A stretch of 64,000 nucleotides of DNA from Phaeacidiphilus oryzae TH49. GTDB taxonomy: Bacteria; Actinomycetota; Actinomycetes; Streptomycetales; Streptomycetaceae. Shown in pieces: positions 584 to 61,246 of this stretch (position 1 is its first letter; every line of letters starts with the position of its first letter). The DNA is taken from NCBI RefSeq assembly GCF_000744815.1, contig NZ_JQMQ01000005.1, positions 5,227,801-5,291,800 on the forward strand. The letters run 5' to 3'. Position numbers and translations under genes: made by a program. A model generated the notes under the pieces. That model searched no databases and was not told the DNA's origin. It saw only the letters and a list, made by a program, of their open reading frames with translations.

Positions 584-1785
584 CCACCGCGTCCTCCATG
601 TGGAAGCTGCTGGCCGACCACGGCACCGCCCTGGTTCTCACCAGCATCACCGCGGTGGCACTCGGCGCGCTCTGGCGCTCCGCCCGCCGGCCCCGCCTCG
701 CCCGCCCGCCGATCAACCGCCTGAGGCTCGCCAGCCTCGTCCTGGCCGTCCCCGGGCTGATGGCTCTCGGACTGTCCGCGAACACCTCATACCGCTACCT
801 GGGCGTCCACCTCGGCATCCACGAGACCACCGAACGCCTCGCCCTGGCCGGCGTCGCCGAGGGGGCCATCGTCGCCCTGAGCGTCTACTCCTGGGCCACC
901 AAGGCCAAGGGCCCGGCCTGGATCGCCTACGGCGCCGTACTCGTCCAGGCCATCCCCGCGTTCGCGGTCTCCGGCGGCTGGGGCGGCATCGTCCGCGTCC
1001 TGTTCGGCCCGCTGCTGCTCGCCACCGTGCTGCACTACCTCCTCGGCCTCGAACTCCGCGCCGCCGGCCTCCGCTCCGACGGGATCCTCGCCCAGGGCGG
1101 CCGGGAGATGCGCGAGCGCCTGGTCGCCTACCTCGGCATCGGACGCCGAGGCGCCGACTCAGCCGCCATCGCCCGCTCCCGCGCGGCCGACCGCGCCGTC
1201 GCCCTCGCCGACCACACCGCCGCCGCCGAACGGCCACGCCGCAAGCGCCGCCTGGCCGCCCGGCTCGCCATCGCGATGGACGCCGCCCGGCATGGCTTGC
1301 CCGAGCCCGACGCCGACGCTGCCGAGCGCGCGATCGTCGCGCGGATCAAGCGCCGCAAGTCCGCCGCCGCCCTCGCCGCCATCCCCGGCAACTACCAGTG
1401 GACCGCCGGTCGAGCCGAGGCCGGACCCGCTCCGGAGGTGGTCATCGACCGGGCCGCACCGGACAGGCCGGCCCTGCGCTACATCCCCATCGCCCGGCCA
1501 GCCGTACCGGTGGCTGCGCTACCAGCCAAGGACGATCGCCGGGCCCGGCGGGTGGTCACCGAGACCGTGACCATCACCCCCGCTGAGCTGCGACGCAAGG
1601 CACAGCGGCTGAACGCCAAGGTGGTCACTGAAACCGGCCGCCCGGTGACCATCGCCGTGCTCCGCGAAGCGTTCGACCTCTCCCGCCGCGACGCCACCGA
1701 ACTCCGCCGCCAGCTCGTCGGCCAACCGGTCACCCAGCGCCCCGCCGACGACCCCCAGGCCGCTACCACCGAGGGATACCTGTGA
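580..1785 (+). CDS. multi-pass membrane protein, DUF2637-like
   Basis: A 401-residue protein started at the ATG that overlaps the preceding stop; the reading frame is open further upstream, but the overlap fits the operon style. About residues 10-160 hold four or five hydrophobic segments. The C-terminal half is soluble, basic and Arg/Ala-rich, and ends in what looks like a helix-turn-helix-like stretch (about residues 340-385). The membrane half resembles the DUF2637 proteins often found beside FtsK-type genes of Streptomyces integrative elements; this comes from family memory, not a search. Its stop overlaps the GTG of the translocase gene, so the two are probably made together. A role as partner or anchor of the DNA pump is an inference. 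Confidence 0.55.
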   Translation: MTTASSMWKLLADHGTALVLTSITAVALGALWRSARRPRLARPPINRLRLASLVLAVPGLMALGLSANTSYRYLGVHLGIHETTERLALAGVAEGAIVALSVYSWATKAKGPAWIAYGAVLVQAIPAFAVSGGWGGIVRVLFGPLLLATVLHYLLGLELRAAGLRSDGILAQGGREMRERLVAYLGIGRRGADSAAIARSRAADRAVALADHTAAAERPRRKRRLAARLAIAMDAARHGLPEPDADAAERAIVARIKRRKSAAALAAIPGNYQWTAGRAEAGPAPEVVIDRAAPDRPALRYIPIARPAVPVAALPAKDDRRARRVVTETVTITPAELRRKAQRLNAKVVTETGRPVTIAVLREAFDLSRRDATELRRQLVGQPVTQRPADDPQAATTEGYL

Positions 1786-3983
1786 CCATCAACGGCCACA
1801 CCCGGCCGAGCCCGAAGCTCCTCCCCGCGTCTGGCGAGGACACCGTCCAGGACCGTGTCCCGGAGACGCTGCCCGCCGTCCCGGCCCCGATCGAGGGCAC
1901 CGTGCTGCCCGCCGACAGCGCCACGCCGCCCGCACGGCGGCCGCGCGTCCGCATCGTGCACGGCGCCGCCCGCACCGTCCGCGTCGTCAAGGTCGTCGCG
2001 ACCCACCAGCGCACCAAGGCCGGCGGCCGGATGCTGGTCCGGCACGGCCTCTACGTTGCGGCCGGCGCCGCCGTGGCCTACCGGCACGCCAAGGACGCGC
2101 GGACCACCGCCCGGCACGAGCGGATGATGCGCGCCGCTGAGGCTGCCGGCCAGCACGAGGTGGCGATGGAGTGGGAGCAGCGTGCCCACGCCTTCCGCGA
2201 GGCGAGGCACCGGCGCCGGATGGACATGCTCAGCGCGCCCGAGCGCCTGGCCAAGGGCGCTGCTCTCACGCTGGGGCTGACCGAGGGCTCCCTGCTGCTG
2301 CTCGGGATCGTGCTCGCGGTCGCCGAGAAGCGCGTTGCGGACGTGGTCGCCCCGACGATGTTCGTGATCCACGCCGTTCAGTGGATCGTGTTCGTGGCCG
2401 GCCTGGTCTGGGGCCCGCTGCTGCTCGCTGTCCCGTGGCTGGCGCTGCTCGGGCTGTGGCAGCTCGGCCGCGCCCGCGGCACCGTCCCGAACTGGGTACT
2501 GCCCGCCGACCAGCAGGAGAAGCGGGACCTGATCCCGGACGAGAACGCCATCGTCCAGGCCCTGCAGCACCTCGGCATCGCCGCCCTGAACAAGGCCTTC
2601 AAGGAGGGCTGGCAGCCGCGCTGGATCCAGCCCACGATGCGGATGGGCAACGGCTACCACGCCAAGCTGCAGCTTCCGATGCAGGTCCCCGTCTCCGAGA
2701 TCGTCAAAAAGAAGGCCGTACTCGCCCACAACCTGCTGCGGCTGCCCATCGAGGTGTGGCCGACCGAGCCCCGCAAGGAGCCCGGCGTCATGGACCTGTG
2801 GGTCGCCGACCAGGGCAGCACCTCGGGCCCAGTGCCCCCATGGCCGCTGCTGACCGAGGGCACCGCGGACTACTTCAAGGGCATTCCCGTCGGCGTCTCC
2901 CAGCGTGGCGAGCCGGTGATCGGCAAGCTCATGGCCTCCAACTACATGGTCGGCGGCATCATGGGCTCGGGTAAGTCGTCCCTGGTCATCGCTCTGTTGC
3001 TTGGTGCTCAGCTCGACCCTCTGGTCGAGATCGAGGTCTACGCCATGGCCTACAACGTCGACTACGACCCGATGAAGCCCCGCCTGCGGACCCTGATCAA
3101 GGGCGACGAAGACGAGCAGATCGAGGCCGCGATCCACGCCCTACGCGCCCTGCGCGACGAGGTCACCCAGCGCGGCAAGCTCCTCGAGGAGCTCGGCGGG
3201 GAGAGCACCGCGCTCACCCGGGAGCTGGCTGAGCGGGACCCGCGGATGCGTCCGAAGGTCGTGGTCTTCGACGAGTGCCACGAGTTGTTCATGCACAAGA
3301 AGTACGGCGACGAGGCCGAGGAACTCGCCATCAAGGTGATGAAGAAGGCCCGCAAGACGGGGATCACCCTGGTCTGGGTCACCGTCTCCCCGACTGCCGA
3401 CTCCATCCCGCGCGACGTCACCCGCAATACCAGCCACCGGGTGGCGTTCGCGGTCGGCGACCACGTCGCCAACGACGGCCTGCTCGGCTCCGGCAAGCAC
3501 AAGGCCGGCATCACCGCCACCACCCTCAACCCGGCTGAAGACGTCGGGACGTGCCTCACCGTGGGCTTCACCAAGAATCCCTTCGAGCTGGTCCGTGCCT
3601 ACTACGTCCGCAAGGACGCCCAGGCCGACCAGCGCACCCCCGTCGTCGAACGCGCCCTCGCCCTGCGCGACGGCATCACCCCCGCGCCGGCCCCGCCGGC
3701 CGCCGAGCGCGTCGACCACCTCGCCGACATCGCCACCGCCATCGGCGACGAACCCCGCATGCGCACCGGGGAGATGTTGCAACGCCTCGCCCAACTCAAC
3801 CCGGGCGCCTACACGGGCAAGGACGCGCAGTGGCTCGCCCAGGTCCTCCGCGACGCCGGCGCCCCGACCTACATGTCCAACGGCTACCCCTCCGTCTCCC
3901 GCGCCAGAGTCCGCGCCGCACTCGAAGAACGCGACGAGCTCGCCCCCGCGGACACCCCGAGCGACGAGATCGACGACCAGTGA
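1782..3983 (+). CDS. FtsK/SpoIIIE-family DNA translocase, TraB-like
   Basis: A 733-residue RecA-fold ATPase predicted to move double-stranded DNA, as Streptomyces TraB does in conjugation. Two hydrophobic segments lie at about residues 165-230. The Walker A motif GGIMGSGKSS is near residues 391-400, with the Lys at 398. Walker B is VVVFDE near 493-498. The last 80 residues form a small helical domain resembling the DNA-binding winged helix at the C-terminus of TraB/FtsK proteins. The GTG start overlaps the stop of the upstream membrane protein. Immediately downstream is a repeat and palindrome cluster that fits a TraB recognition locus. Chromosomal FtsK is longer and differently organised, and phages rarely carry such a gene, so a conjugative origin is favoured. 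Confidence 0.85.
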   Translation: MTINGHTRPSPKLLPASGEDTVQDRVPETLPAVPAPIEGTVLPADSATPPARRPRVRIVHGAARTVRVVKVVATHQRTKAGGRMLVRHGLYVAAGAAVAYRHAKDARTTARHERMMRAAEAAGQHEVAMEWEQRAHAFREARHRRRMDMLSAPERLAKGAALTLGLTEGSLLLLGIVLAVAEKRVADVVAPTMFVIHAVQWIVFVAGLVWGPLLLAVPWLALLGLWQLGRARGTVPNWVLPADQQEKRDLIPDENAIVQALQHLGIAALNKAFKEGWQPRWIQPTMRMGNGYHAKLQLPMQVPVSEIVKKKAVLAHNLLRLPIEVWPTEPRKEPGVMDLWVADQGSTSGPVPPWPLLTEGTADYFKGIPVGVSQRGEPVIGKLMASNYMVGGIMGSGKSSLVIALLLGAQLDPLVEIEVYAMAYNVDYDPMKPRLRTLIKGDEDEQIEAAIHALRALRDEVTQRGKLLEELGGESTALTRELAERDPRMRPKVVVFDECHELFMHKKYGDEAEELAIKVMKKARKTGITLVWVTVSPTADSIPRDVTRNTSHRVAFAVGDHVANDGLLGSGKHKAGITATTLNPAEDVGTCLTVGFTKNPFELVRAYYVRKDAQADQRTPVVERALALRDGITPAPAPPAAERVDHLADIATAIGDEPRMRTGEMLQRLAQLNPGAYTGKDAQWLAQVLRDAGAPTYMSNGYPSVSRARVRAALEERDELAPADTPSDEIDDQ

Positions 3984-6474: not shown

Positions 6475-6650
6475 TGGCGTAGGTCACCGCCCCGCAGATC
6501 GGTTCGCGCATAGTTTTGATACGAACCAATCAGGGCATGATCGGCCGAGCATCCGGCTACCGGGCCGCCTCAAGACGGCAAGCCCTCCGAATGCCCCGAA
6601 GCACCGACTCGCTCGCCATACCGGCGCACGCGACCCGCAACGGAGGCATC

Positions 6651-7400
6651 ATGCCCACCTGGACCATGCACTGCGGCGACGCCCTCACCGTCCTCCACAC
6701 CCTGCCCACCAACTCGGCAGACGCCGCCATCACCGACCCGCCCTACAACTCCGGCGGACTCACCGCGGCCCAACGCACCAGCGACACCGCCCGCGGGAAA
6801 TACGTCAGCGGCGACGCCCAACACCAGCTGCCCGACTTCGACGGCGACAGCCGAGACCAACGCGGCTACCTCGCCTGGCTCAACCTCGTCCTCGGCCAGT
6901 GCTACCGCATCGCCCGCGCCGGCGGCCCGCTGCTCGTCTTCACCGACTGGCGCCAACTCCCGATCACCTCCGACGCGATCCAGGCAGCCGGATGGACCTG
7001 GCGCGGCATCGTGCCCTGGCACAAGCCCATCGCCAGGCCGGCGCGCGGCGGCTTCCGCCGCTCCTGCGAATACGTGCTCTGGGCCAGCAAAGGCCGCGTG
7101 GATGCGGACCGGAACCCGGTCTACCTCGACGGTCTCCTCTCCGCGTCGCAGCCGCGAGGCACGAAGCGGCGCCACATCACCCAGAAGCCCGACGAGCTGA
7201 TGCGCGACCTGGTGCAGATCTGCCCGCCCGGCGGCACCATCCTCGACCCCTTCGCCGGGTCCGGATCGACCGGCACCGCGGCGCTCGCCACCGGACGATC
7301 CTTCGTCGGCATCGAGCTGTCCGCCCGCTACGCCGCAGTGGCCGAAGACCGACTCCGGCTCACCCAGGAGGACTTCACCCTCGTGCCCGAAGGCGAATAG
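6651..7400 (+). CDS. orphan beta-class N6-adenine/N4-cytosine DNA methyltransferase
   Basis: A 249-residue protein predicted to transfer a methyl group from S-adenosylmethionine to an exocyclic amino group of A or C. The catalytic motif IV is DPPY (residues 29-32). The SAM-binding motif FAGSGSTG starts at residue 201. Motif IV before motif I is the beta arrangement. A GGAGG site precedes the chosen ATG, whereas upstream in-frame starts lack one. No restriction enzyme gene adjoins it, so it is probably a solitary phage methyltransferase for anti-restriction or self-marking. The terminase region 2.3 kb downstream is rich in GATC sites, a possible target, but specificity cannot be read from the sequence. 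Confidence 0.85.
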   Translation: MPTWTMHCGDALTVLHTLPTNSADAAITDPPYNSGGLTAAQRTSDTARGKYVSGDAQHQLPDFDGDSRDQRGYLAWLNLVLGQCYRIARAGGPLLVFTDWRQLPITSDAIQAAGWTWRGIVPWHKPIARPARGGFRRSCEYVLWASKGRVDADRNPVYLDGLLSASQPRGTKRRHITQKPDELMRDLVQICPPGGTILDPFAGSGSTGTAALATGRSFVGIELSARYAAVAEDRLRLTQEDFTLVPEGE

Positions 7401-8828: not shown

Positions 8829-9080
8829 TTGGACGGCAACCTGATGCTCGCCACCGAGCTCGCCGAGTGCCTCGGCGTCTCACCTTCGGCCGTTCGGAAG
8901 TGGAAGCAGCGCGAGAAGCTCCAGCCCGCCGGCCTTGACCACCTCGGCCGGCCGCTCTACCGCTACGACGACGCTGCGGAAGTCGAGTACGCCACCCGCC
9001 AGCGCTCTGGCCGTGACCCCTTGGTGCGCCGCACCTACGCGCCCGAACACCCCGACCGGCCACGCCGGACCGCGGCATGA
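8829..9080 (+). CDS. MerR-like helix-turn-helix protein
   Basis: An 83-residue DNA-binding protein. Residues about 6-35 form a helix-turn-helix with the signature LATELAECLGVSPSAVRKWKQ. A wing-like segment with RPLYRYDD follows. The TTG start is chosen because GAGGAGG lies at the right distance; the next ATG is five codons in. Its stop overlaps the start of the HNH gene. Small HTH proteins at this place, just upstream of HNH and terminase, are common in actinophages and may act in gene regulation or DNA recognition for packaging. Confidence 0.7.
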   Translation: MDGNLMLATELAECLGVSPSAVRKWKQREKLQPAGLDHLGRPLYRYDDAAEVEYATRQRSGRDPLVRRTYAPEHPDRPRRTAA

Positions 9081-9364
9081 GCGGCCGCTGGGCAGGCTCA
9101 GACCGCCGCCGCCGACTCCCGTCGAGCTGGCCCAAGATCCGCGCCCGCATCCTCGAACGCGACCCCATCTGCACCATCTGCGGCGTCCGGCCATCCGCCC
9201 AGGTCGACCACCACAAGGCCAAGACCGACGACCACGGAGACTCAGCCCTGCGCGGCGTCTGCGGCCCCTGCCACGGACAGAAGTCCAGCCGTGAAGGGAA
9301 CGAAGGCCGGCGCCCGCAGAACCCGCGCCTGAGGCCCAACGAGCCACATCCAGGACTCCGATAG
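9077..9364 (+). CDS. HNH endonuclease
   Basis: A 95-residue nuclease. It has the CTIC Cys pair, then VDHHKAK with the catalytic His region, then LRGVCGPCHGQKSSREGN, giving the second Cys pair and the C-terminal His/Asn of the HNH fold. The ATGA overlap with the HTH gene supports the start. HNH proteins encoded next to terminase assist DNA cleavage at cos sites in HK97-type phages, so this is probably part of the packaging machine rather than a homing enzyme. Confidence 0.85.
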   Translation: MSGRWAGSDRRRRLPSSWPKIRARILERDPICTICGVRPSAQVDHHKAKTDDHGDSALRGVCGPCHGQKSSREGNEGRRPQNPRLRPNEPHPGLR

Positions 9365-9388: not shown

Positions 9389-9628
9389 ATGGCCAGCACA
9401 CGACGGCGCGGAGGCAACGCGCAGACACTCCGCGACTACTGGACCCACGGCAAGGGCGCAGCCAAGATCGGCTGGGGTGCGCCCGGCGACTTCAACCGCT
9501 GCGTCAGCCAGCTGTCCAAGTACCTCGGCCCGCGCGCCAAGGGCTACTGCGCACTCCGCCACCACGCGGCCACCGGCATGTGGACAGCCCAGCACGCCAA
9601 GGCCCTGCGTGGCGGCCGCAAGCGCTGA
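9389..9628 (+). CDS. conserved small actinophage protein
   Basis: A 79-residue basic protein with the segments KIGWGAPGDFNRCV and YCALRHHAATGMW. This pattern is, from memory, widespread in actinophage genomes near head or tail genes. No activity is known to me. A ribosome binding site is weak. Position between HNH and terminase suggests a packaging or virion-associated role, unproven. Confidence 0.65.
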   Translation: MASTRRRGGNAQTLRDYWTHGKGAAKIGWGAPGDFNRCVSQLSKYLGPRAKGYCALRHHAATGMWTAQHAKALRGGRKR

Positions 9629-10080
9629 CCCACCGACCGCCCGCCCGGCTGGTCCGGCTCCGGCCGGCTGGGCGGACATGCTGCCTGGCAGCGTCACGGT
9701 CACCGGCTGACCGACCATCGCTCGCGCGAGGCGTTGATCGTTGCGCGAATGCGCGAAGCGAAGTGATCACAAAGGAACTTCTTGATCAACAAGAAATGCG
9801 ATCAAGAAAGCAAGATCAAATAGATCTCATTGGCGATCAAGGCGCCGACCAGCACAGATCCATGGTCGCCATGCGCATTGCCCTGGGGGGATGCCCCTGA
9901 CCTGGGGTTTTGGCGGATCGGGGCCGTATAGCACCTGACCTCCTGTACGGGTTTCCATGATCCAGCCGCCCACCAGCACAAACACCGCTGACCTGCGCAA
10001 ATGCCCTGGAGGCATGATCGCTGGTCGCTGATCATCCCGCCCGCGCGCCCCGGCGGCGCGCCCTGACCCTGGAGGTCACC
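9629..10080. other. non-coding region before terminase; candidate cos/pac, GATC cluster
   Basis: No convincing gene lies in these 452 bases. About 9760-9860 is clearly more A+T-rich than the surroundings. GATC occurs 12 times between 9736 and 10033, seven of them within 9765-9860; four of these read GATCAA. The position, between the HNH and small terminase genes, is where a packaging start site (cos or pac) would be expected. A GGAGG site for the small terminase closes the region. The exact cut site cannot be read. Confidence 0.5.
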
Positions 10081-10518
10081 GTGGGAGCACGAGGCCCCAT
10101 CCCGAAGCGCTCAGAGGAGCGCCGCCGCCGCAACCGAGACGAGGGCCCCGAGCTGGCGCAGGCCCCATCTGGACCGCCGCTCGACCTGCCTGCCCTGCCG
10201 GACCCGGATCCGGACTGGCACCCGATCGCCACCGACTGGTACCTCAGCCTCCGCGAGTCCGGTCAGGCCGCGTTCTACCAGGCCTCGGACTGGGCGGTCG
10301 CCAGGTACGCGGCCGAGCTGATGTCCCGGATGCTGTCCTCGGAGCGGATGCCGAACGGCCAACTGGTCGCCGCAGTCGACGCGGTGATGGCGCGTCTGCT
10401 GACGACGGAGGGCGACCGGCGCCGGGCCCGGATCGAGCTGGCCCGGCAGTCCACGGAGCAGCAGGCGCCGGCAGGCGTGACCGCCATCGCGGACTACCAG
10501 GCCCGGATCGGTGGCTGA
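10081..10518 (+). CDS. terminase small subunit
   Basis: A 145-residue protein that should bind the packaging site and load the large subunit. The N-terminus GARGPIPKRSEERRRRN is typical of actinophage small terminases. The rest is helical, with a C-terminal basic helix. The GTG start has a GGAGG site. Its end overlaps the large-subunit start by eight bases, the usual coupling. Confidence 0.8.
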   Translation: MGARGPIPKRSEERRRRNRDEGPELAQAPSGPPLDLPALPDPDPDWHPIATDWYLSLRESGQAAFYQASDWAVARYAAELMSRMLSSERMPNGQLVAAVDAVMARLLTTEGDRRRARIELARQSTEQQAPAGVTAIADYQARIGG

Positions 10519-12235
10519 CGTCCCGGACGTCGTCCAGCCCGTAGCGATCGGCCCGACTTGGCGCCGCGGCCCCGACGGGAAGTTCGTGCTGCCGGCCTTC
10601 ACGCTCGGCTGGCAGTGCCTCGCCTGGACAGGCACCTACCTGCAGCATCACGTCGGGGCGCCATGGCGGTACACCTCGGAGCAGGCCCGGCTGACGCTGT
10701 GGTGGTACGCCATGGACCCGGTGAGCCACCGGTTCCTCTACCGGGACGGCGTGCTGCAGCGGCTGAAGGGCTGGGGCAAGGACCCGGTCAAGGCCACCTG
10801 GTCGGCGTTCGAGTTCGTCGGGCCCTGCCGGTTCGGGGGGATTGCCGAGGCCGGGAACCCGTGGGGCATCCCGGCCGGGCAGCCGGTCGGTGCCCAACAT
10901 CCGGCGGCCTGGGTGCAGATCGCGGCGGTCTCGCAGGACCAGACGCGGAACACGATGACCCTGTTCCCGTCCATCTTCACCAGGCGGGCGCTCGAGGAGT
11001 TCCGGATCGATCTCGGCAAGGAGATCATCTACGCGGACAAGGGGCGGGCCCGGATCGAGGCCGTGACGTCCTCTCCGAGGGCGCTGGAAGGCGGTCGGCC
11101 GACCTTCACGTCCATGGGCGAGACGCACCACTGGGTAGAGTCCAACGGCGGGCACGAGATGGCCGCGGTCATCGAGCGCAACGCCACCAAGTCCGCGGAC
11201 GGGCAGGCCCGGACGCTGGCGGACACCAACGCCTACGAGCCCGGCGAGGACTCGGTGGCGGAGCGGACCCGAGAGGCGTGGGAGTCAGCGCGGTCTGGCC
11301 GGGCGGCCGACACAGGGCTGTTCTACGACTCGCTGGAGGCGCCGGCGGAGGCGCTGCTGACAGAGGAATGGATCGGGCCGACGCTCCGGGCGGTGCGCGG
11401 GGACTCGGTGTGGCTCGACATCGACCGGCTGAAGGCGTCGATCCTGGACATCCGCAACCCGCCCTCGCGCTCCCGCCGGTTCTGGTTCAACCAGATCGTG
11501 GCCGCGGAGGACGCGTTCCTGGCGCCCTACGAGTGGGATGCATGCCCGCATGAGGGCCTGCAGCTCGCCTCCGGCGACGAGCTGGTGCTGTTCTTTGACG
11601 GCTCGAAGAGCGACGACGCGACGGGCCTGGTCGGCTGCCGGGTCTCGGACGGCCTGGTCGTGACGCTCGGGGTGTGGCAGCGGCCGGCGAACTGGCCGGA
11701 CGACACCCCGTGGCGGGTGCCGCGCGAGGACGTCGACGGGGTGGTCGAGCGCGCCTTCGCCGAGTACCGGCCGCTGGCGTTCTTCGCGGACCCCGGCTCG
11801 GGCCACGACGATGCGGATGGCGAGCGGTACTGGGACGGCTACATCGACGCGTGGGCGCAGCGCTACGGCAAGCGCCTGAAGGTGAAGGCGGTCACGGGCG
11901 GGGCGAACCGGCACGCCGTGCTGTGGGACATGCGCGACCGGCGCCGGCAGCAGGCGTTCACGGAGGCCGTGGACCGGTTCTACCGGGACGTCTTGGAACG
12001 CCAGTTGCTGCATGACGGGCACCGGGTGCTGCGCCAGCACGTCGCGAACGCCCGGCGGCGGACAAATGCCTGGGGCTACACGATCGGCAAGGAGCACCGG
12101 GAGTCCGCCCGGAAGATCGACCTGGCGGTGTGCGCGATCGGGGCGCGGATGCTGCGCCGGACGCTCCTGACCTCGGCTACCTGGGAGAAGCGCGCGAAGG
12201 CGCGCGGCAAGGGGAGGGTGGTGGTGCTGCGATGA
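10511..12235 (+). CDS. terminase large subunit
   Basis: A 574-residue packaging motor: N-terminal ATPase, C-terminal RNase H-like nuclease. The Walker A variant KGWGKDP starts near residue 86. A GETHHW segment near residue 200 replaces the usual DEAHHW Walker B/coupling box. The nuclease acidic motif LFFDGSKSDDATG begins near residue 357. Length is normal for the HK97-type family. GTG start; the stop overlaps the portal start (ATGA). Confidence 0.93.
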   Translation: MADVPDVVQPVAIGPTWRRGPDGKFVLPAFTLGWQCLAWTGTYLQHHVGAPWRYTSEQARLTLWWYAMDPVSHRFLYRDGVLQRLKGWGKDPVKATWSAFEFVGPCRFGGIAEAGNPWGIPAGQPVGAQHPAAWVQIAAVSQDQTRNTMTLFPSIFTRRALEEFRIDLGKEIIYADKGRARIEAVTSSPRALEGGRPTFTSMGETHHWVESNGGHEMAAVIERNATKSADGQARTLADTNAYEPGEDSVAERTREAWESARSGRAADTGLFYDSLEAPAEALLTEEWIGPTLRAVRGDSVWLDIDRLKASILDIRNPPSRSRRFWFNQIVAAEDAFLAPYEWDACPHEGLQLASGDELVLFFDGSKSDDATGLVGCRVSDGLVVTLGVWQRPANWPDDTPWRVPREDVDGVVERAFAEYRPLAFFADPGSGHDDADGERYWDGYIDAWAQRYGKRLKVKAVTGGANRHAVLWDMRDRRRQQAFTEAVDRFYRDVLERQLLHDGHRVLRQHVANARRRTNAWGYTIGKEHRESARKIDLAVCAIGARMLRRTLLTSATWEKRAKARGKGRVVVLR

Positions 12236-20333: not shown

Positions 20334-23300
20334 GTGTCCATCAGCATCGGGACCGTCCAGGTCGACGTCATCCCCAACACCAAGGGCATCCAGAAGCGGA
20401 TGCAGGAAGGCACTGCTGCGCCGTCTGCCGCGACCGGCGAGCAGATGGGGAAGATCATCGGGGATCGGGTGTCCGCCGCGATCACCGATGCGCTGAAGGA
20501 CTCCATCCCGAAGGGCGTCCCGAAGACGATCCCGCCGGCGACGAAGGGCGGCGACGAGGTCGGGGGCGCGTTCGGCCGGGCGATGTCCGCCCGGATCCGC
20601 GCCGCGATGGCGTCCCTGCCGAACATCAAGGTCGACGCGGACACCTCGGAGGCGGACAAGGAGCTGGCGGCTCTCCGAGAGCGGCTGAAGACGCTGGCGG
20701 GCAAGTCGGTCGGCGTAGATATCGACGCTGCGGATGCCGAGGCGGAGCTCGCGGCGATCCAGGCCGAGCTGGAGCGCGTCTCCGCCGACCACCCGAACAT
20801 CGTGATCCGGACGGACGCCGCGAAGGCCCTCAGCGAGGTGCAGGCGGTCCGGACCGAGCTGGCCGGGCTCGGCCAGGAGAAGGTAGAGCCCGAGGTCGAA
20901 CCGAAGGTCAACGAGGGCGCCTTCGCCGCGCGGCTGCGAGCGCAGCTCGCTGCGGCGCAGACCGCGCTGCCGACGATCGAGGTCGACGCGGACGCCGACC
21001 CTGCGCTGGTCAAGATTCAGACGGTCCGCGGGTCCCTGGCGGAGCTGTCCAGCATGCGCCTGGGCGTGGATATCGACGCGGCCAGCGCGCTGGCCAAGGT
21101 CGCCGAGATCCGCGCCTCGCTGGAGGCCCTGGGTGGCGAAGACGCCCCGATCGACGTCCAGGTCGACTCGGCCCGGGCGATCGCGGCCCTGGCGGTCATC
21201 CAGGCCCAGGTCGACGCGCTCAGCAAGGAAGAGCCCGAGGTACAGGTCGATGTCGAGCCGCCGGCCGACGGTGTCTTCGGGGCGCGGCTGCGGGCCCAGG
21301 TGGCGGCGGCGCAGGCCGCGCTCCCGGACATCCAGGTCGATGCGGACACCGATCCGGCTGCGGCCAAGGTCGCCGAGATCCGCGCGGACCTGGCGGCCCT
21401 GTCCACCGCCCGGGTCGGGGTGGACATCGACGCTGCCGCGGCCCTGGCGAAGGTCGTCGAGATCCGCGCGGCCCTCGCGGAGATCAACGGCAAGAACGCC
21501 TCGATCGATCTGCAGGTGGACGCCGCGCGGGCGGAAGCCCAGCTCGCTGCGTTCCAGGCCGAGGTCGAGGCGGTGGGGGCGCAGAGCCCGTCGGTGCGGG
21601 TGAGCGCGGACACCGGCTCGGCCATGGCCCAGCTGACGGCGCTCGGCGTGGAGCTGGCCATCATCGGGGCGATCCAGGTGGGGCCGGTCGCCGCGGCGGG
21701 GATCGGGTCGATCGCGGCCGCGGCGGGTGCCGCGGCGGCCGGCGTCGGCGTCCTCGCCGCGGTGGCCGGCCCGGCGATCGCCGGCATCAGCAAAGCATTG
21801 CAGGCGCAGACCGCAGCCCAGCAGGCGTCCACCACCGCGACGAACTCCGGCGCGTCGGCGATGGTGCAGGCCCAGCAGAAGGCGATCCAACTCGCCTCGG
21901 CCCGGGCGGCGCTGGCCACGGCGGAGCGCAACGGGGCCCAGCAGGTACAGCAGGCTGAGCAGCAACTCGCCCAGGCCCGCACCTCGGCGGCCCAGCAGGT
22001 CCAGCAGGCCGACCGGCAGGTCCAGCAGGCCGAGGAGTCTCTCCAGCAGGCGCAGCAGCAGGAGACCCAGGCCCAGCAGGCCCTCACCCAGGCCCGCAAG
22101 GACGCCGCGCAGCAGCTGCAGGACCTCGCCAACCAGCTCGCCGACTCGCAGCTGTCGCAGCGTCAGGACGTCCTCAACGTCACGGACGCCGAGAAGCAGC
22201 TCGCCGCCGACCGGGCGGCCGGCGCGAAGGTGTCCGCGGAGCAGATCGCCAAGGACCAGCTGGCCTACGACCAGGCGGTGCAGGCCCTCAAGGAGCAGCA
22301 GCTCCAGACCAGCCGCCTGACCCAGCAGAAGGCCGCGGCGGACAAGGCCGGCATTTCCGGCTCGCAGGCGGTCAAGACGGCTGAGCAGCAGCTCGCCCAG
22401 GCCCAGCAGGAGGTGCGGGACCGCACCCAGGCTGTGGCGGACGCCGAGCAGGCCGCGGCGCAGGCCCGGGTGCAGGGGCAGCAGCAGATCGCGCAGGCCC
22501 AGCAGCGGGTGGCGCAGGCGCAGGCCTCTGCCGCGGACTCGATCGCCTCGGCGCAGCGGCAGATCCAGTCCGCTGAGCTGTCGACCGCGTCCAGCGCCGG
22601 CGTCGCGTCCACGGCGCAGCAGAAGTACCAGGCTGCGCTGGCGAAGCTCAGTCCGAGCGCGGTCGGCCTCATGCATGCCTTCACGGGGCTGAAGACCGAG
22701 TACTTGGCCTGGTCGACGGCGTTGCAGCCGGAGGTGCTGCCGCTGCTCACCCGGGCGATCAACGGCGCCGCGGGGAGTCTCCACCTGTTCACCCCGATGG
22801 TGCACGAGGCGGCGGCCGGCGTCTCCGACCTGGAAGGCACCGTCAGCAAGGACGTGAAGTCCCCGTTCTGGGACCGGTTCCTGGTTGACCTCACCGGCAA
22901 CGTGCGCCCGGCGATCAGCGGACTCGGCATCGCCTTCGCCAACGTCTTCACCGGCATGGCCGGGGTGGTCGACGCATTCCTGCCGCACACCAAGGGCTTC
23001 GTCGGCTTCCTCGACGACGTGACCGCGAAGTTCTCCAGGTGGGGGACTGGGCTGAAGGGCAGCCCGGCCTTCGAGGCCTTCATGAGCTACGTCGCCACCA
23101 ACGGGCCGCGCGTGGGCCAGCTGGTCGGCGACATCCTCCAGGCTGCCCTGGCACTCTCCCAGGCCCTGGCGCCGCTGACCGGTCCCCTGATGACCGTCGT
23201 CGATGACGTGGTCAAGGGCATCGGCTGGCTCGCCACGAACTACCCGGGCGTCATCCAGGTCCTGTGGATCGGGGTGGCCGTGTGGAAGGCCAGCCAGTTG

Positions 23301-25274
23301 GCCGCAGGGCTCGCCGCGGCCGCGATCGGCGCGTACTCGGCCGCCACGGCGTTTGCCACGGACGAGACCGTGGCGTTCGACGCCGCGATCCAGGGCACGG
23401 TGATCGTGCCGATCATCGAGGCGATCATCGCGGCGGTCGCCCTACTGGTCATCGGCGTGATCTACGCCTACAACCACTGGTCCTGGTTCCGCACCATCGT
23501 CGACGGCGCGGTTCACGGGATTGCCACGGTCGCCCTGTGGCTGTGGAACGTCGTGCTCAAGCCGACGTTCAACTTCATCTGGGCCGCGATCCAGCTGGTC
23601 GGCCAGGTCGCGGTGTGGCTGTGGAAGAACGCGATCGCGCCCGCCTTCAACTTCATCGGCCTCGCCGCCCGGGTCCTCTTCGCGATCTTCCTCACGGTGC
23701 TGATCACCCCGGCTGTGATCCTCTTCCACCTGCTCGGGGCCGCCGCATCGTGGCTGTGGACCAACGCGATCAAGCCCGCCTTCACCTGGATCGGCGCCCT
23801 GGCGGGCTGGCTCTACCAGCACGCCCTCCAGCCCGCCTTCCACGGCATCTCGGTCGCCGCCTCAGCGGTCGGGGCCGCAGCCATGTGGCTGTGGCAGCAC
23901 GCCATCTACCCCGCCTTCCACTGGATCGCGGACCTCGCCATCTGGCTCTATCAGCACGTGATCGGCCCTCAGTTCCACGCCATTGCGGCGGTCGCCACCT
24001 GGCTCTGGGACCACGGCCTCAGCCCCGCGTTCTCGCTGATCAACCAGGGCGTCAACCTCGTGGCCGGCGCCTTCAAGAGCGCGGTCGGCTTCATCGGCAC
24101 CTGGTGGGGGAAGCTGGAAGACGTCGCCAAGAAGCCCGTCAACTTCGTGATCAACACCGTGTACACGCACGGGATCAAGGAGGTCTGGGACAAGATCGCG
24201 GGCGTCGTTCACCTGCCGAAGCTGCCGAACGCCCCCAAGCTCCTGGCCGCGGGTGGCACCGTCGGACCCGGCTGGGGCCCGGCCGTGCCGATGGTCACCA
24301 ACCGGCCGACCGCGATCGTCGGCGAGGGCCGGACGCAGTACCCCGAGTACGTGATCCCCACCGACCCGCGCTACCGGGGTCGGGCGCAGGCGCTGTGGCA
24401 GGCCGCCGGCACCCAACTCATGGCCGACGGCGGGATCCTGGGCGACGTCTGGGGCGGCATCACCGGCTTCGGGAAGGGGCTGCTGTCCGGGCTCTCCTCG
24501 GCCGCCGACATCCTCGCCGACCCCGGGAAACTCTGGACGAAGGCCACCAGCCCGATCACGTCCACGGTCAACAGGCTGGCGGGGCAGTCGCCTTGGGCCA
24601 AGATGGTCATGCAGTTCCCGCGGAAGATGATCAGCGGGCTGAAGGATCACCTGCTGAGCCTGATCGGTCTCGGCGGCGGCTCCGGCGGTGCAGGCGGGGA
24701 CACCTCGGTGCATGGTGCCTCGGCGGCCGCGGCGCAGGCCATCGCCCGCCAACTCCTGCCGTCCTACGGCTGGGGCCCGGGCCAGATGACGCCCCTGATC
24801 AAGCTCTGGAACCAAGAGAGCGGGTGGCGCTGGAACGCGCTCAACCCCTCCAGCGGCGCCTACGGCATCCCGCAGAGTCTCCCCGCGAGCAAGATGGCGT
24901 CGGCCGGCCCGGACTGGCGCACCAACCCGGCCACGCAGGAACGCTGGGGTCTGAGCTACATCAAGGGCCGGTACGGCTCGCCGGCGGGCGCCTGGGCGCA
25001 CGAGGTCGCAATGAACTGGTACGACTCCGGCGGCTACATCCCGCCGGGCCTGTCCCTGGTGGCCAACGGAACCGGCAAGCCGGAGCCGGTCCTCACCGAC
25101 TCCCAGTGGTCCGCGATCGCCGCGGCGACCAAGGGCGGCGACAGCGCCGGCGGCCAGTTCACCGGCCAGCTCTACCTCGACTCGGGCGAACTCCTCGGCC
25201 TGGTGCGCGGCGAGATCGAATCCGAGACCACGCGGCACACCGCCGCTCTTACCGCAGGAAGGAAGTCCGCATGA
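20334..25274 (+). CDS. tape measure protein with tail muralytic domain
   Basis: A 1646-residue protein that sets tail length and helps DNA entry; the length implies a tail near 240 nm by the usual rule. Residues about 77-425 hold three repeats of about 118 residues, each with ARLRAQxAAAQ, VDAD and GVDIDAA. Hydrophobic segments lie near 440-485 and 975-1060. A Gln-rich coiled coil spans about 500-770. Residues about 1062-1242 repeat WLWxxAIxPAF. About 1462-1572 resembles a lytic transglycosylase (LWNQESGWRWNALNPSSGAYGIPQ), probably for local peptidoglycan cutting. GTG start after a G-rich site. Confidence 0.92.
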   Translation: MSISIGTVQVDVIPNTKGIQKRMQEGTAAPSAATGEQMGKIIGDRVSAAITDALKDSIPKGVPKTIPPATKGGDEVGGAFGRAMSARIRAAMASLPNIKVDADTSEADKELAALRERLKTLAGKSVGVDIDAADAEAELAAIQAELERVSADHPNIVIRTDAAKALSEVQAVRTELAGLGQEKVEPEVEPKVNEGAFAARLRAQLAAAQTALPTIEVDADADPALVKIQTVRGSLAELSSMRLGVDIDAASALAKVAEIRASLEALGGEDAPIDVQVDSARAIAALAVIQAQVDALSKEEPEVQVDVEPPADGVFGARLRAQVAAAQAALPDIQVDADTDPAAAKVAEIRADLAALSTARVGVDIDAAAALAKVVEIRAALAEINGKNASIDLQVDAARAEAQLAAFQAEVEAVGAQSPSVRVSADTGSAMAQLTALGVELAIIGAIQVGPVAAAGIGSIAAAAGAAAAGVGVLAAVAGPAIAGISKALQAQTAAQQASTTATNSGASAMVQAQQKAIQLASARAALATAERNGAQQVQQAEQQLAQARTSAAQQVQQADRQVQQAEESLQQAQQQETQAQQALTQARKDAAQQLQDLANQLADSQLSQRQDVLNVTDAEKQLAADRAAGAKVSAEQIAKDQLAYDQAVQALKEQQLQTSRLTQQKAAADKAGISGSQAVKTAEQQLAQAQQEVRDRTQAVADAEQAAAQARVQGQQQIAQAQQRVAQAQASAADSIASAQRQIQSAELSTASSAGVASTAQQKYQAALAKLSPSAVGLMHAFTGLKTEYLAWSTALQPEVLPLLTRAINGAAGSLHLFTPMVHEAAAGVSDLEGTVSKDVKSPFWDRFLVDLTGNVRPAISGLGIAFANVFTGMAGVVDAFLPHTKGFVGFLDDVTAKFSRWGTGLKGSPAFEAFMSYVATNGPRVGQLVGDILQAALALSQALAPLTGPLMTVVDDVVKGIGWLATNYPGVIQVLWIGVAVWKASQLAAGLAAAAIGAYSAATAFATDETVAFDAAIQGTVIVPIIEAIIAAVALLVIGVIYAYNHWSWFRTIVDGAVHGIATVALWLWNVVLKPTFNFIWAAIQLVGQVAVWLWKNAIAPAFNFIGLAARVLFAIFLTVLITPAVILFHLLGAAASWLWTNAIKPAFTWIGALAGWLYQHALQPAFHGISVAASAVGAAAMWLWQHAIYPAFHWIADLAIWLYQHVIGPQFHAIAAVATWLWDHGLSPAFSLINQGVNLVAGAFKSAVGFIGTWWGKLEDVAKKPVNFVINTVYTHGIKEVWDKIAGVVHLPKLPNAPKLLAAGGTVGPGWGPAVPMVTNRPTAIVGEGRTQYPEYVIPTDPRYRGRAQALWQAAGTQLMADGGILGDVWGGITGFGKGLLSGLSSAADILADPGKLWTKATSPITSTVNRLAGQSPWAKMVMQFPRKMISGLKDHLLSLIGLGGGSGGAGGDTSVHGASAAAAQAIARQLLPSYGWGPGQMTPLIKLWNQESGWRWNALNPSSGAYGIPQSLPASKMASAGPDWRTNPATQERWGLSYIKGRYGSPAGAWAHEVAMNWYDSGGYIPPGLSLVANGTGKPEPVLTDSQWSAIAAATKGGDSAGGQFTGQLYLDSGELLGLVRGEIESETTRHTAALTAGRKSA

Positions 25275-37600: not shown

Positions 37601-37675
37601 TGGTGGGCGCAGACGGTTTCGAACCGCCGACCCCTGCTTTGTAAGAGCAGTGCTCTACCACTGAGCTATGCGCCC
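37601..37675 (-). tRNA. tRNA-Val (anticodon UAC)
   Basis: Reading the minus strand from 37675: acceptor GGGCGCA pairs with TGCGCCC, D-arm AGCTCAGTGGTAGAGC, anticodon stem CTGCT/AGCAG around loop CTTACAA (anticodon TAC), T-arm with GGTTCGAAACC, and CCA encoded at 37603-37601. All cloverleaf elements are intact. The 3' end faces the element on the left, the standard orientation for integration into a tRNA gene. Confidence 0.95.
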
Positions 37676-59782: not shown

Positions 59783-61246
59783 ATGGCCGAACTACTGGAG
59801 AAGGACCGGCTGTTCATAGGCGGCGAGTGGGTCGCCCCGCAGGGCGGGGAGGTCATCGAGGTCGTCTCCCCGCACACCGAGAAGGTCTTCGGAAGGGTGC
59901 CGCACGCCTCGCGGGCGGACGTGGACCGGGCGGTGGCGGCCGCCCGAAAGGCCTTCGACGAGGGGCCGTGGCCGCGGATGCCGCTGGCGGAGCGGCTCGC
60001 GGTGATCACCCGGATCAAGGACGGACTCGCCGCCCGCGCCGAGGAGTTGGCCCGGCTGATCAGCTCCGAGAACGGCTCGCCGATCTCCTTCTCACTGATG
60101 GCGCAGGGCTTCGGCCCGGTGATGATCTGGGACACCTACCTCCAGGTCGCCCGGGACCACGCGTTCCAGGAGCGGCGCGACGGCGTCCTCGGACCGATCC
60201 TGGTGCGCCGGGAGCCGGCGGGCGTGGTGGCGGCCGTGGTGCCGTGGAACGTACCGCAGTTCACGGCGGCGGCGAAGCTGGCGCCCGCGCTGGCGGCGGG
60301 CTGCACGGCGGTGCTGAAGCCCTCGCCGGAGGCGCCGCTGGACTCCTATCTGCTGGCCGAGGTGGTGGCGGAGGCCGGGCTGCCGGAGGGCGTGCTGTCC
60401 ATCCTGCCGGCGGACCGGGAGGTCAGCGAGTACCTGGTCGGGCATCCCGGGGTGGACAAGGTCTCCTTCACCGGCTCGGTGGCCGCGGGCAAGCGGATCA
60501 TGGAGGTGGCCGCGCGCAACCTCACCCGGGTGACGCTGGAGCTGGGCGGCAAGTCGGCGGCGGTGCTGCTGCCGGACGCCGACCTGGACGCGGCGGTCAC
60601 CACCCTGATGGGGGCCTCCTACATGAACAACGGGCAGGCCTGCGTCGCGCAGACCCGGGTGCTGGTGCCGGCCTCGCGGTACGAGGAGATCGCGGAGCGG
60701 ATGGTCGCGGCCGTCGGCGAGTTGACGGTCGGTGACCCGCTGGACGACGCCACGAAGATCGGGCCGCTGGTCGCACAGCGGCAGCAGAAGCGGTCGCTGG
60801 ACTACATCCGGCTCGGGCAGGAGGAGGGCGCCAAGGTCCTCACCGGCGGCGGCGTCCCCAGCTCGCAGCCGACGGGGTGGTACGTCGAGCCGACGCTGCT
60901 GGGCGGCGTCGACAACCGGATGCGGGTGGCCCGGGAGGAGATCTTCGGGCCGGTCGTCGGGCTGATCCCGTACGCGGACGAGGCGGAGGCGCTGCGGATC
61001 GCCAACGACTCGGAGTACGGGCTCTCCGGGAGCGTGTGGACGGCGGACGTGCGGAAGGGCATCGAGTTCGCGTCGCGGGTGCGGACCGGGACGATCTCCG
61101 TCAACACCTTCAGCCTGGACTTCCGCGGGCCGTTCGGCGGCTTCAAGAACTCCGGTCTGGGAAGGGAGTTCGGGCCGGAGGGGCTCGCGGCGTACCTTGA
61201 GGACAAGACGGTCAACCTGCCGCAGGGATGGACGGATTCGGAATGA
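59783..61246 (+). CDS. aldehyde dehydrogenase (NAD(P)+)
   Basis: A 487-residue enzyme oxidising an aldehyde to the acid. Catalytic Cys287 in NNGQACVAQTR, general base Glu253 in LELGGKSA, Asn in VVPWNVPQ, and NADP-binding FTGSVAAGK. ATG 59783 follows GGAGGGAG; GTG 59780 is the alternative. Shared operator with the thiolase promoter suggests oxidation of a steroid side-chain or related aldehyde, possibly made by the P450. Couples to the ferredoxin gene (ATGA). Confidence 0.9.
   Translation: MAELLEKDRLFIGGEWVAPQGGEVIEVVSPHTEKVFGRVPHASRADVDRAVAAARKAFDEGPWPRMPLAERLAVITRIKDGLAARAEELARLISSENGSPISFSLMAQGFGPVMIWDTYLQVARDHAFQERRDGVLGPILVRREPAGVVAAVVPWNVPQFTAAAKLAPALAAGCTAVLKPSPEAPLDSYLLAEVVAEAGLPEGVLSILPADREVSEYLVGHPGVDKVSFTGSVAAGKRIMEVAARNLTRVTLELGGKSAAVLLPDADLDAAVTTLMGASYMNNGQACVAQTRVLVPASRYEEIAERMVAAVGELTVGDPLDDATKIGPLVAQRQQKRSLDYIRLGQEEGAKVLTGGGVPSSQPTGWYVEPTLLGGVDNRMRVAREEIFGPVVGLIPYADEAEALRIANDSEYGLSGSVWTADVRKGIEFASRVRTGTISVNTFSLDFRGPFGGFKNSGLGREFGPEGLAAYLEDKTVNLPQGWTDSE

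Follow-up and report, generated by a model that had tools for sequence, protein, structure and literature searches.

A GATC array beside the cos site of a temperate tailed phage and its relatives in the Streptomycetaceae, and the host protein that may bind it

A window of 64,000 nucleotides from Phaeacidiphilus oryzae TH49 (the whole stretch of DNA that was analysed, to whose numbering bare coordinates refer) holds an array of GATC sites at the right end of the genome of a temperate tailed phage, where they crowd into some 250 bp to one side of cosN. An array recurs at this position in related phages whose upstream sequence is otherwise unrelated, and in the arrays of this clade GATC is frequently followed by (A/T)T, written GATCWT below. 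I read the feature, tentatively and with a little less than even confidence, as a cos-linked GATC array for the host nucleoid protein Gbn, which I infer to occupy the sites and to have a role there. No such cos-linked arrays have been reported before in the open-access literature that was searched.

The GATC cluster and the packaging site

GATC begins at positions 9736, 9765, 9784, 9800, 9814, 9823, 9835, 9857, 9916, 9959, 10016 and 10030 of the window, which bears out the count of an earlier note on this DNA (12 sites in the 298 bp of 9736-10033, seven of these in 9765-9860). When GATC density is followed along the element, 12 is the top count among the window's 298-bp stretches, the best stretch without overlap to the cluster having 8 and the window averaging 2.3 per 298 bp; 5000 dinucleotide-preserving shuffles of the stretch gave a mean of 2.53 and a maximum of 8, and a Poisson model gives 12 sites a probability of about 5e-6 with the GATC rate of the window and of 7e-7 with that of the host, for one window and uncorrected. 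The density is also clearly raised, as the note had claimed, against chromosomal DNA, where 439 kb of the host chromosome reach at most 8 per 298 bp and 713 kb taken from eight genomes (the host, family members and Streptomyces) at most 9 per 300 bp; the densest of these chromosomal stretches lies upstream of a gene for a Gbn-like protein in S. rishiriensis. The cluster is flanked by the gene of a 79-aa basic protein, P0002 (9389..9628, plus strand; phrog_6439), and by terS, which starts at 10081, and it is crossed by ORFs at 9580-9900 (plus) and 9802-10035 (minus); since the codon-position G+C of both is unlike that of coding sequence in this genome, the stretch is taken as non-coding, in agreement with the note, which had also described it correctly as A+T-richer DNA before the terminase genes (one 100-bp bin has a G+C as low as 0.48).

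Judged from its sequence, the packaging site looks like a cos and not like a P1-type pac. The gene order of HNH endonuclease (9077..9364, plus; phrog_333), cos, terminase small subunit (TerS; 10081..10518, plus; PF25673) and terminase large subunit (TerL; 10511..12235, plus; phrog_9) is that of HK97-like and actinophage cos regions, where the Pfam assignment of TerS is preferred over that of its PHROGs family, phrog_226, which is labelled 'minor tail protein'. The cos core itself, GGGGCCGTATAGCACCTGACCTCCTGTACGGGTTTCC (9920..9956, plus), is a 37-base block conserved in relatives, and cosN is preceded by an inverted element of a G-run and a C-run, CCTGGGGGGATGCCCC (9882..9897, plus), versions of which are seen by eye at the annotated ends of phages D29 and Mulciber. 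A 44-base query around the core has matches in 146 phage records, 140 of them of Mycobacterium, and most of the 60 matches listed of these 146 cover bases 9-30 or 14-30 of their record, for example those in Mulciber and D29, two phages with records that start at the genome end; in D29, 9941-9957 corresponds to bases 14-30 (blastn E 9). Because the E-values of the core matches are 3-9, the weight rests on the record-end position in many phages and not on the score. The core also aligns by eye with the annotated ends of Streptomyces phage Itza once these are joined, and it is from alignment by eye with the annotated record ends of Itza, D29 and Mulciber that the cut is placed near 9929/9930. The claim that the cluster lies at the packaging site stands, whereas a P1-type pac is not supported, the block matching annotated genome ends. 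The inferred cut divides the span of 9736-10033 into an array of nine sites on the right-end side of cos (9736..9919, sites 9736 to 9916) and three sites on the left-end side (9959..10033; 9959, 10016 and 10030).

Downstream of the inferred cut, by 14-27 nt, lies the deeply conserved CTGTACGGGTTTCC (9943..9956, plus), and since HK97 TerS binds 15-29 nt downstream of its own cut according to the available part of an account (PMC11331095), this block is likely, by analogy of position, to be the TerS recognition site. HK97, like the window, has its cos ahead of terS and terL and an HNH gene close by; the window phage has a GATC array, whereas none is mentioned for HK97 in that part of the account (PMC11331095). 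A fold search with the TerS model, itself of middling confidence, gave no significant match, the best being HK97 TerS at E 0.51. Further on, GCCCTGGAGGC (10003..10013, plus) holds the word GCCCTGGNGGC, of which 22 of 26 loci, the window included (locus L038 ends too early to tell), have one or two copies in the interval from cos to terS; the word moves with terS and not with cos.

As for the wider surroundings, about 24 to 21 kb before the window (L095 15-2907; C5 5203815-5206707) a gene for a RepSA-like replication protein is followed, as judged by eye, by one for a tyrosine integrase, an arrangement as in actinomycete integrative conjugative elements; a second integrase-like ORF (L095 3235-5163, minus) faces the tyrosine integrase and an FtsK/SpoIIIE-like gene lies at 1782-3983 of the window. 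The RepSA-like, integrase and FtsK/SpoIIIE-like genes suggest that the phage adjoins, or is mixed with, an integrative conjugative element. At the other side, a gene with a CheB methylesterase domain (PF01339; 37826-38452) lies just beyond a tRNA-Val gene (37601-37675) and outside the likely extent of the phage.

The array across related phages

Relatives were collected with the pattern TATAGCA-N9-CTGTACGGGTT, which found 19 genome contigs, and with a stricter form of it, in which two of the nine N were fixed and which found 27 virus contigs, making with the window 47 loci, 39 of them distinct. The clade set consists of the 28 loci with a related TerS (27 by tblastn, plus L038, which ends before terS); the other 11 of the 39 (L064, L065, L066, L070, L071, L075-L079 and L082) were left out, having no TerS match at E 1e-5, and carry 0-4 GATC, with just 81 and 110 bp available for the count in L064 and L075, respectively. 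Flanks and 6-mers were counted on a set of 29 loci whose upstream sequence spans 300 bp or more, a set that includes the left-out L070, L071, L077 and L082, and whole records were compared in a set of 19 long records (18 virus records, and the window region standing for G321), of which those above 60 kb were often covered to position 60,000 only.

Across the 28-locus clade (25-28 loci per bin), mean GATC per 50 bp is about 0.1-0.7 farther out, then 1.16, 1.56, 2.20 and 2.00 over the last four bins ahead of the cut, and stands at 0.29 directly after it; a second rise at +250 (1.30 per 50 bp) falls within terS in most loci. Between 6 and 15 GATC in up to 330 bp are found in 19 of the 28 loci, and 1-5 in the other nine, two of which have short upstream DNA (L047 with 78 bp, L052 with 46 bp), so the array is dispensable. 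It is the densest GATC stretch of the whole record in 9 of the 19 long records. When each record was shuffled 1000 times, at most one shuffle reached the observed count in eight of the 19 (G298, G300, G310, G322, G304, G307, G309 and the window), an intermediate 2-23 did so in G299, G303, G312, G314, G319 and G305, and 152, 86, 532, 432 and 359 did so in G301, G306, G316, G308 and G315, in which five the count is not significant. None of 120 protein clusters over the 19 records correlates with array size in a way that survives 120 tests, the best (rho 0.59, p 0.007) being present in four records.

The sequences that carry these sites are diverse. With the last 75 bp excluded, the arrays of 26 loci (L047 and L052 being too short) fall into 15 families without blastn homology to one another (E 1e-3, 50 bp), from which it follows that the GATC motif has recurred; some arrays are non-coding and some overlap small unrelated ORFs, and where true ORFs lie under an array there is only a mild GATC excess over synonymous recoding. 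Loci L026 and L036 illustrate the point: they agree in the cos core, in 119 of the 120 bases that follow it and in all but two of 144 TerS residues, but their upstream DNA is dissimilar and holds 6 and 13 GATC, respectively. Similarly, terS starts 874-884 bp after cos in L029, L037, L041 and L048, and despite this distance there are 15, 2, 9 and 7 GATC sites, respectively, at cos.

Among Streptomyces phages outside the clade, the last 300 bp of the record hold one GATC in Itza, R4 and Loofah, two in Joe and Verse and none in Caelum and phiC31 (nor are there any in D29 and Mulciber), and the 400 bp before the TerS match hold five in Shady, one in Shaeky, none in Sycamore and four in Spernnie, the last of which has no recognisable cos motif. 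Most of the other Streptomyces phages checked thus lack an array, which makes it a habit of the clade and not a need of all Streptomyces phages.

Two further kinds of repeat were noticed in these records. In G322, G319 and G308 a region of TGAGCAG/TGATCAG/CTGCTCA repeats lies about 8.0, 5.5 and 5.8 kb before cos, just before a gene; the repeats are possibly operators or iterons and were judged a different element and not part of the cos array. Many records also have a GATC-rich spot (about 7-11 per 300 bp) some 13 kb after cos, which in the window is near 23,000, inside an ORF (20334-25274) that is probably the tape measure gene, making the spot probably coding.

Site flanks and the candidate host binder

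The flanks of the array sites depart from random. TGATCA makes up 46 of 180 array sites as opposed to 3% of 1821 control sites (29 loci), and among the 6-mers with the strongest enrichment are TGATCA (46 seen, 2.1 expected), ATGATC (63 and 4.5), GATCAA (45 and 3.1) and AAGATC (46 and 4.9), together with the C-run of the inverted element. ATGATC is the complement of GATCAT and AAGATC that of GATCTT, and both GATCAT and GATCTT are reported binding sites of Gbn (SCO1839), a Streptomyces nucleoid protein of 73 aa and pI 10.53 (PMC9239103); this identity of enriched words and published sites supports Gbn as the binder, GATCAA being outside the Gbn consensus. In the available part of the same study, nearly all Gbn-bound regions contain GATC and 84-88% contain GATCWT, several copies load a single fragment, and the DNA is slightly stiffened with its shape barely changed (PMC9239103). 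Over the 280 bp before cos in 28 loci, GATCWT reaches 13.2 per kb compared with 1.09 elsewhere, and other GATC 13.9 compared with 6.0, so that GATCWT accounts for 95 of 195 GATC in arrays and 290 of 1893 elsewhere (Fisher p 1.5e-24, an optimistic value since related loci are pooled, the 15 families being the fairer unit). Two hundred shuffles of the arrays gave means of 80.8 GATC and 15.4 GATCWT, with maxima of 105 and 28. At least five GATCWT occur in some member of nine of the 15 families (L028/L032, L051, L030, L033/L039, L027, L029, L031, L036 and L038). The window's family is outside these nine, with GATCWT at one of its nine upstream sites; the preference, marked over the clade, is weak for the window array alone, where GATCWT accounts for 4 of 12 sites (p 0.035 against a host background of 11%) and GATCAA/TTGATC for 5 of 12 (background 3.5%).

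A candidate gene for the binder was sought near cobN, whose neighbourhood I take to be that of gbn, and this approach gave one in one of eight sampled genomes, that of S. rishiriensis (L074; G325), where a protein of 73 aa and pI 10.53 that matches PF19575 (HTH_58) is encoded 11 kb from cobN with 10 GATC in the 650 bp upstream. The window host (G000) has a relative 88% identical over 73 aa, with the same upstream neighbour gene (by eye) and 5 GATC in 700 bp, and from length, pI and upstream GATC I infer that these Gbn-like proteins are Gbn. The published reverse primer (PMC9239103), used as a 17-base pattern, was found in none of 392 genomes. In the phage sequence fetched there was no Gbn-like protein, only weak matches (E at least 0.4), so the binder would be host-made. 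Separately, an unrelated virus contig, L199, encodes a Gbn-like protein, and Gbn-like small HTH proteins occur in 31 records of Streptomyces and related plasmids and in one cultured phage, Gilgamesh, suggesting that mobile elements may carry GATC binders of their own.

If Gbn is indeed the ligand, several copies of the host protein would occupy the fragment beside cosN and slightly stiffen the DNA there, and the coated array may act as a host-supplied accessory to terminase, or as a brake on it, comparable to the help that IHF gives at lambda cos. Alternatively, the array could be a label on the DNA end that leads the way into a new cell, the right end being, in a lambda-like gene order, the one that is packaged last and enters first. 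Occupancy might affect cos cleavage, the termination of packaging, the silence of the packaging region in the prophage or the fate of that end, and methylation would be unnecessary for any of these. Counting against Gbn are the low GATCWT share of the window array (4 of 12), the nine relatives with only 1-5 sites, and the other Streptomyces phages with 0-2 GATC at the record end, even though their hosts should have Gbn.

The strongest competitor to Gbn, which I nevertheless regard as unlikely, is that the sites are bound by a phage protein (TerS, HNH or P0002) and make up an extended cosB-like region for loading terminase. The array is strictly tied to cosN, the genes of all three proteins adjoin it, and P0002, present in 16 of the 19 long records including the window, is absent from three that have 7, 2 and 1 GATC; furthermore, the TerS sites at the P1 pac are TGATCA/G hexamers (the PacA hexamers, which are Dam-methylated), and TGATCA is likewise the top 6-mer in the arrays. 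However, across 21 sequences TerS shows strong conservation, with a mean column identity of 82%, while arrays vary from 1 to 15 sites, the near-identical TerS and cos of L026 and L036 go with unlike numbers of sites in unlike DNA, and HK97 TerS binds on the downstream side of the cut (PMC11331095), a place held here by the conserved CTGTACGGGTT. P0002, for its part, is present also where the array is small (G305, G308), and its model (pLDDT 70, weak) has no significant fold match.

A little less likely still is that Gbn or another repressor uses the array to silence a late or terS promoter in the lysogen, the adjacency to cos being incidental. The array does lie upstream of terS, promoters bound by Gbn generally show lower expression, and the integrated element SCO4615-4627 is up in a gbn mutant, as given in the available part of the Gbn study (PMC9239103). 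Silencing fits poorly with an array that stops at cosN and not at terS, and that stays with cos in three of the four loci whose terS is some 880 bp away, to which it may be countered that a promoter could precede the extra gene too; and a search of 9600-10120 for sigma-70-like promoters, the one type covered, found none.

Adenine methylation of GATC by the element's own methyltransferase, controlling packaging as in P1, is what the earlier note had proposed, and I consider it very unlikely. GATC is a known adenine-methylation site, and the beta-class DNA methyltransferase that the note had placed in the same element is there (6516..7400, plus; PF01555, 3.9e-29), 3.4 kb upstream of cos. The arrays, however, do not travel with methyltransferases in relatives. 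PF01555 occurs in 5 of the 27 virus records with this cos (four over the cut-off, and one of the five the window's own phage), PF02086 in one of 27 and PF05869 in none, while among the 19 long records PF00145 occurs in seven and PF02384 in none; eight of the 19, which may be fragments, have none of these five DNA-methyltransferase families and carry 15, 14, 13, 11, 10, 9, 7 and 2 GATC in 280 bp. Over the 19 records array size shows no association with the presence of an N6-type enzyme (p 0.64), and records with any methyltransferase have slightly smaller arrays (p 0.046, uncorrected); as a side observation, C5-type enzymes (PF00145) tend to go with smaller arrays (p 0.037, uncorrected). The window enzyme itself is neither conserved in the clade nor linked to the array in relatives, having in the 18 other records (E 1e-5) three partial matches only (33-52% over 57-85 aa), each 20 kb or more from cos. 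The note had further cited the beta-class enzyme DpnA to show that this class can act on GATC, and the nearest solved relatives do include entries named DpnA (PDB 5hek/5hfj) and CcrM; the name of 5hek/5hfj does not show GATC specificity. Among nine host genomes PF02086 was found in one and is missing from eight, although PF01555 occurs in several, which would allow for a host enzyme that went unrecognised. The arrays do resemble the P1 pac in having a cluster of GATC-containing hexamers at the packaging site, with TGATCA prominent; they differ in that the sites lie mainly on one side of the cut, that no methyltransferase is conserved in the clade and that the flanks favour GATCWT, and, whereas P1 packages by headful from a pac without fixed ends, the site in the window looks like a fixed-end cos, by homology to annotated phage ends only. 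The flanks, moreover, are not free, as a target of GATC alone would have allowed, and in the available part of the Gbn study the site that they favour is bound less by Gbn when its adenine is methylated, while S. coelicolor is described as lacking Dam and as degrading methylated DNA (PMC9239103).

Finally, a mutational or compositional accident of an A+T-richer pocket is hardly credible. In its favour, the window array is richer in A+T than the DNA around it, the G+C of the 19 upstream stretches is 0.54-0.72 and CATG is also raised 2.9-fold in arrays; against it, the shuffles of the window stretch never exceed 8 against the 12 observed, GATC is the most raised of the 16 4-bp palindromes (3.8-fold; AATT follows at 3.4-fold on two counts) and the same position recurs in unrelated sequences.

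Parallels and meaning

A cos-linked array for Gbn would have two instructive parallels. In lambda, the IHF site I1 places a site for a host nucleoid protein within cos, at cosB (PMC4669245), as the array would here; IHF, however, bends DNA sharply at one cosB site, whereas the window has many small sites on the other, right-end side of cosN for a protein that barely changes DNA shape (PMC9239103). The promoter of gbn (SCO1839) itself has 8 GATC in 322 bp and is bound by Gbn in vitro (PMC9239103), a GATC cluster of the same kind, although it is a chromosomal promoter and not a phage end, and the phage arrays are denser, with up to 15 in 280 bp.

A broader and more doubtful proposal, which I would entertain as a possibility, is that a clade of Streptomycetaceae phages has repeatedly evolved dense Gbn arrays beside cosN at the right end, each time from unrelated DNA, through which a sporulation-linked chromatin protein couples the state of the host to cos cleavage, to the termination of packaging or to protection of the end that enters first. 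Should the Gbn reading be true, the combination of cos and array would offer a sequence handle for locating the packaging ends of Streptomyces prophages, and a tempting story of methylation would become one of binding sites. A host chromatin protein would then form part of a phage packaging site in Actinobacteria, as IHF does at lambda cos, but in the form of a many-site array; Gbn, so far known as a subtle chromosomal regulator, would gain a sharp and testable target, and phage packaging or entry would be linked to the development of the host.
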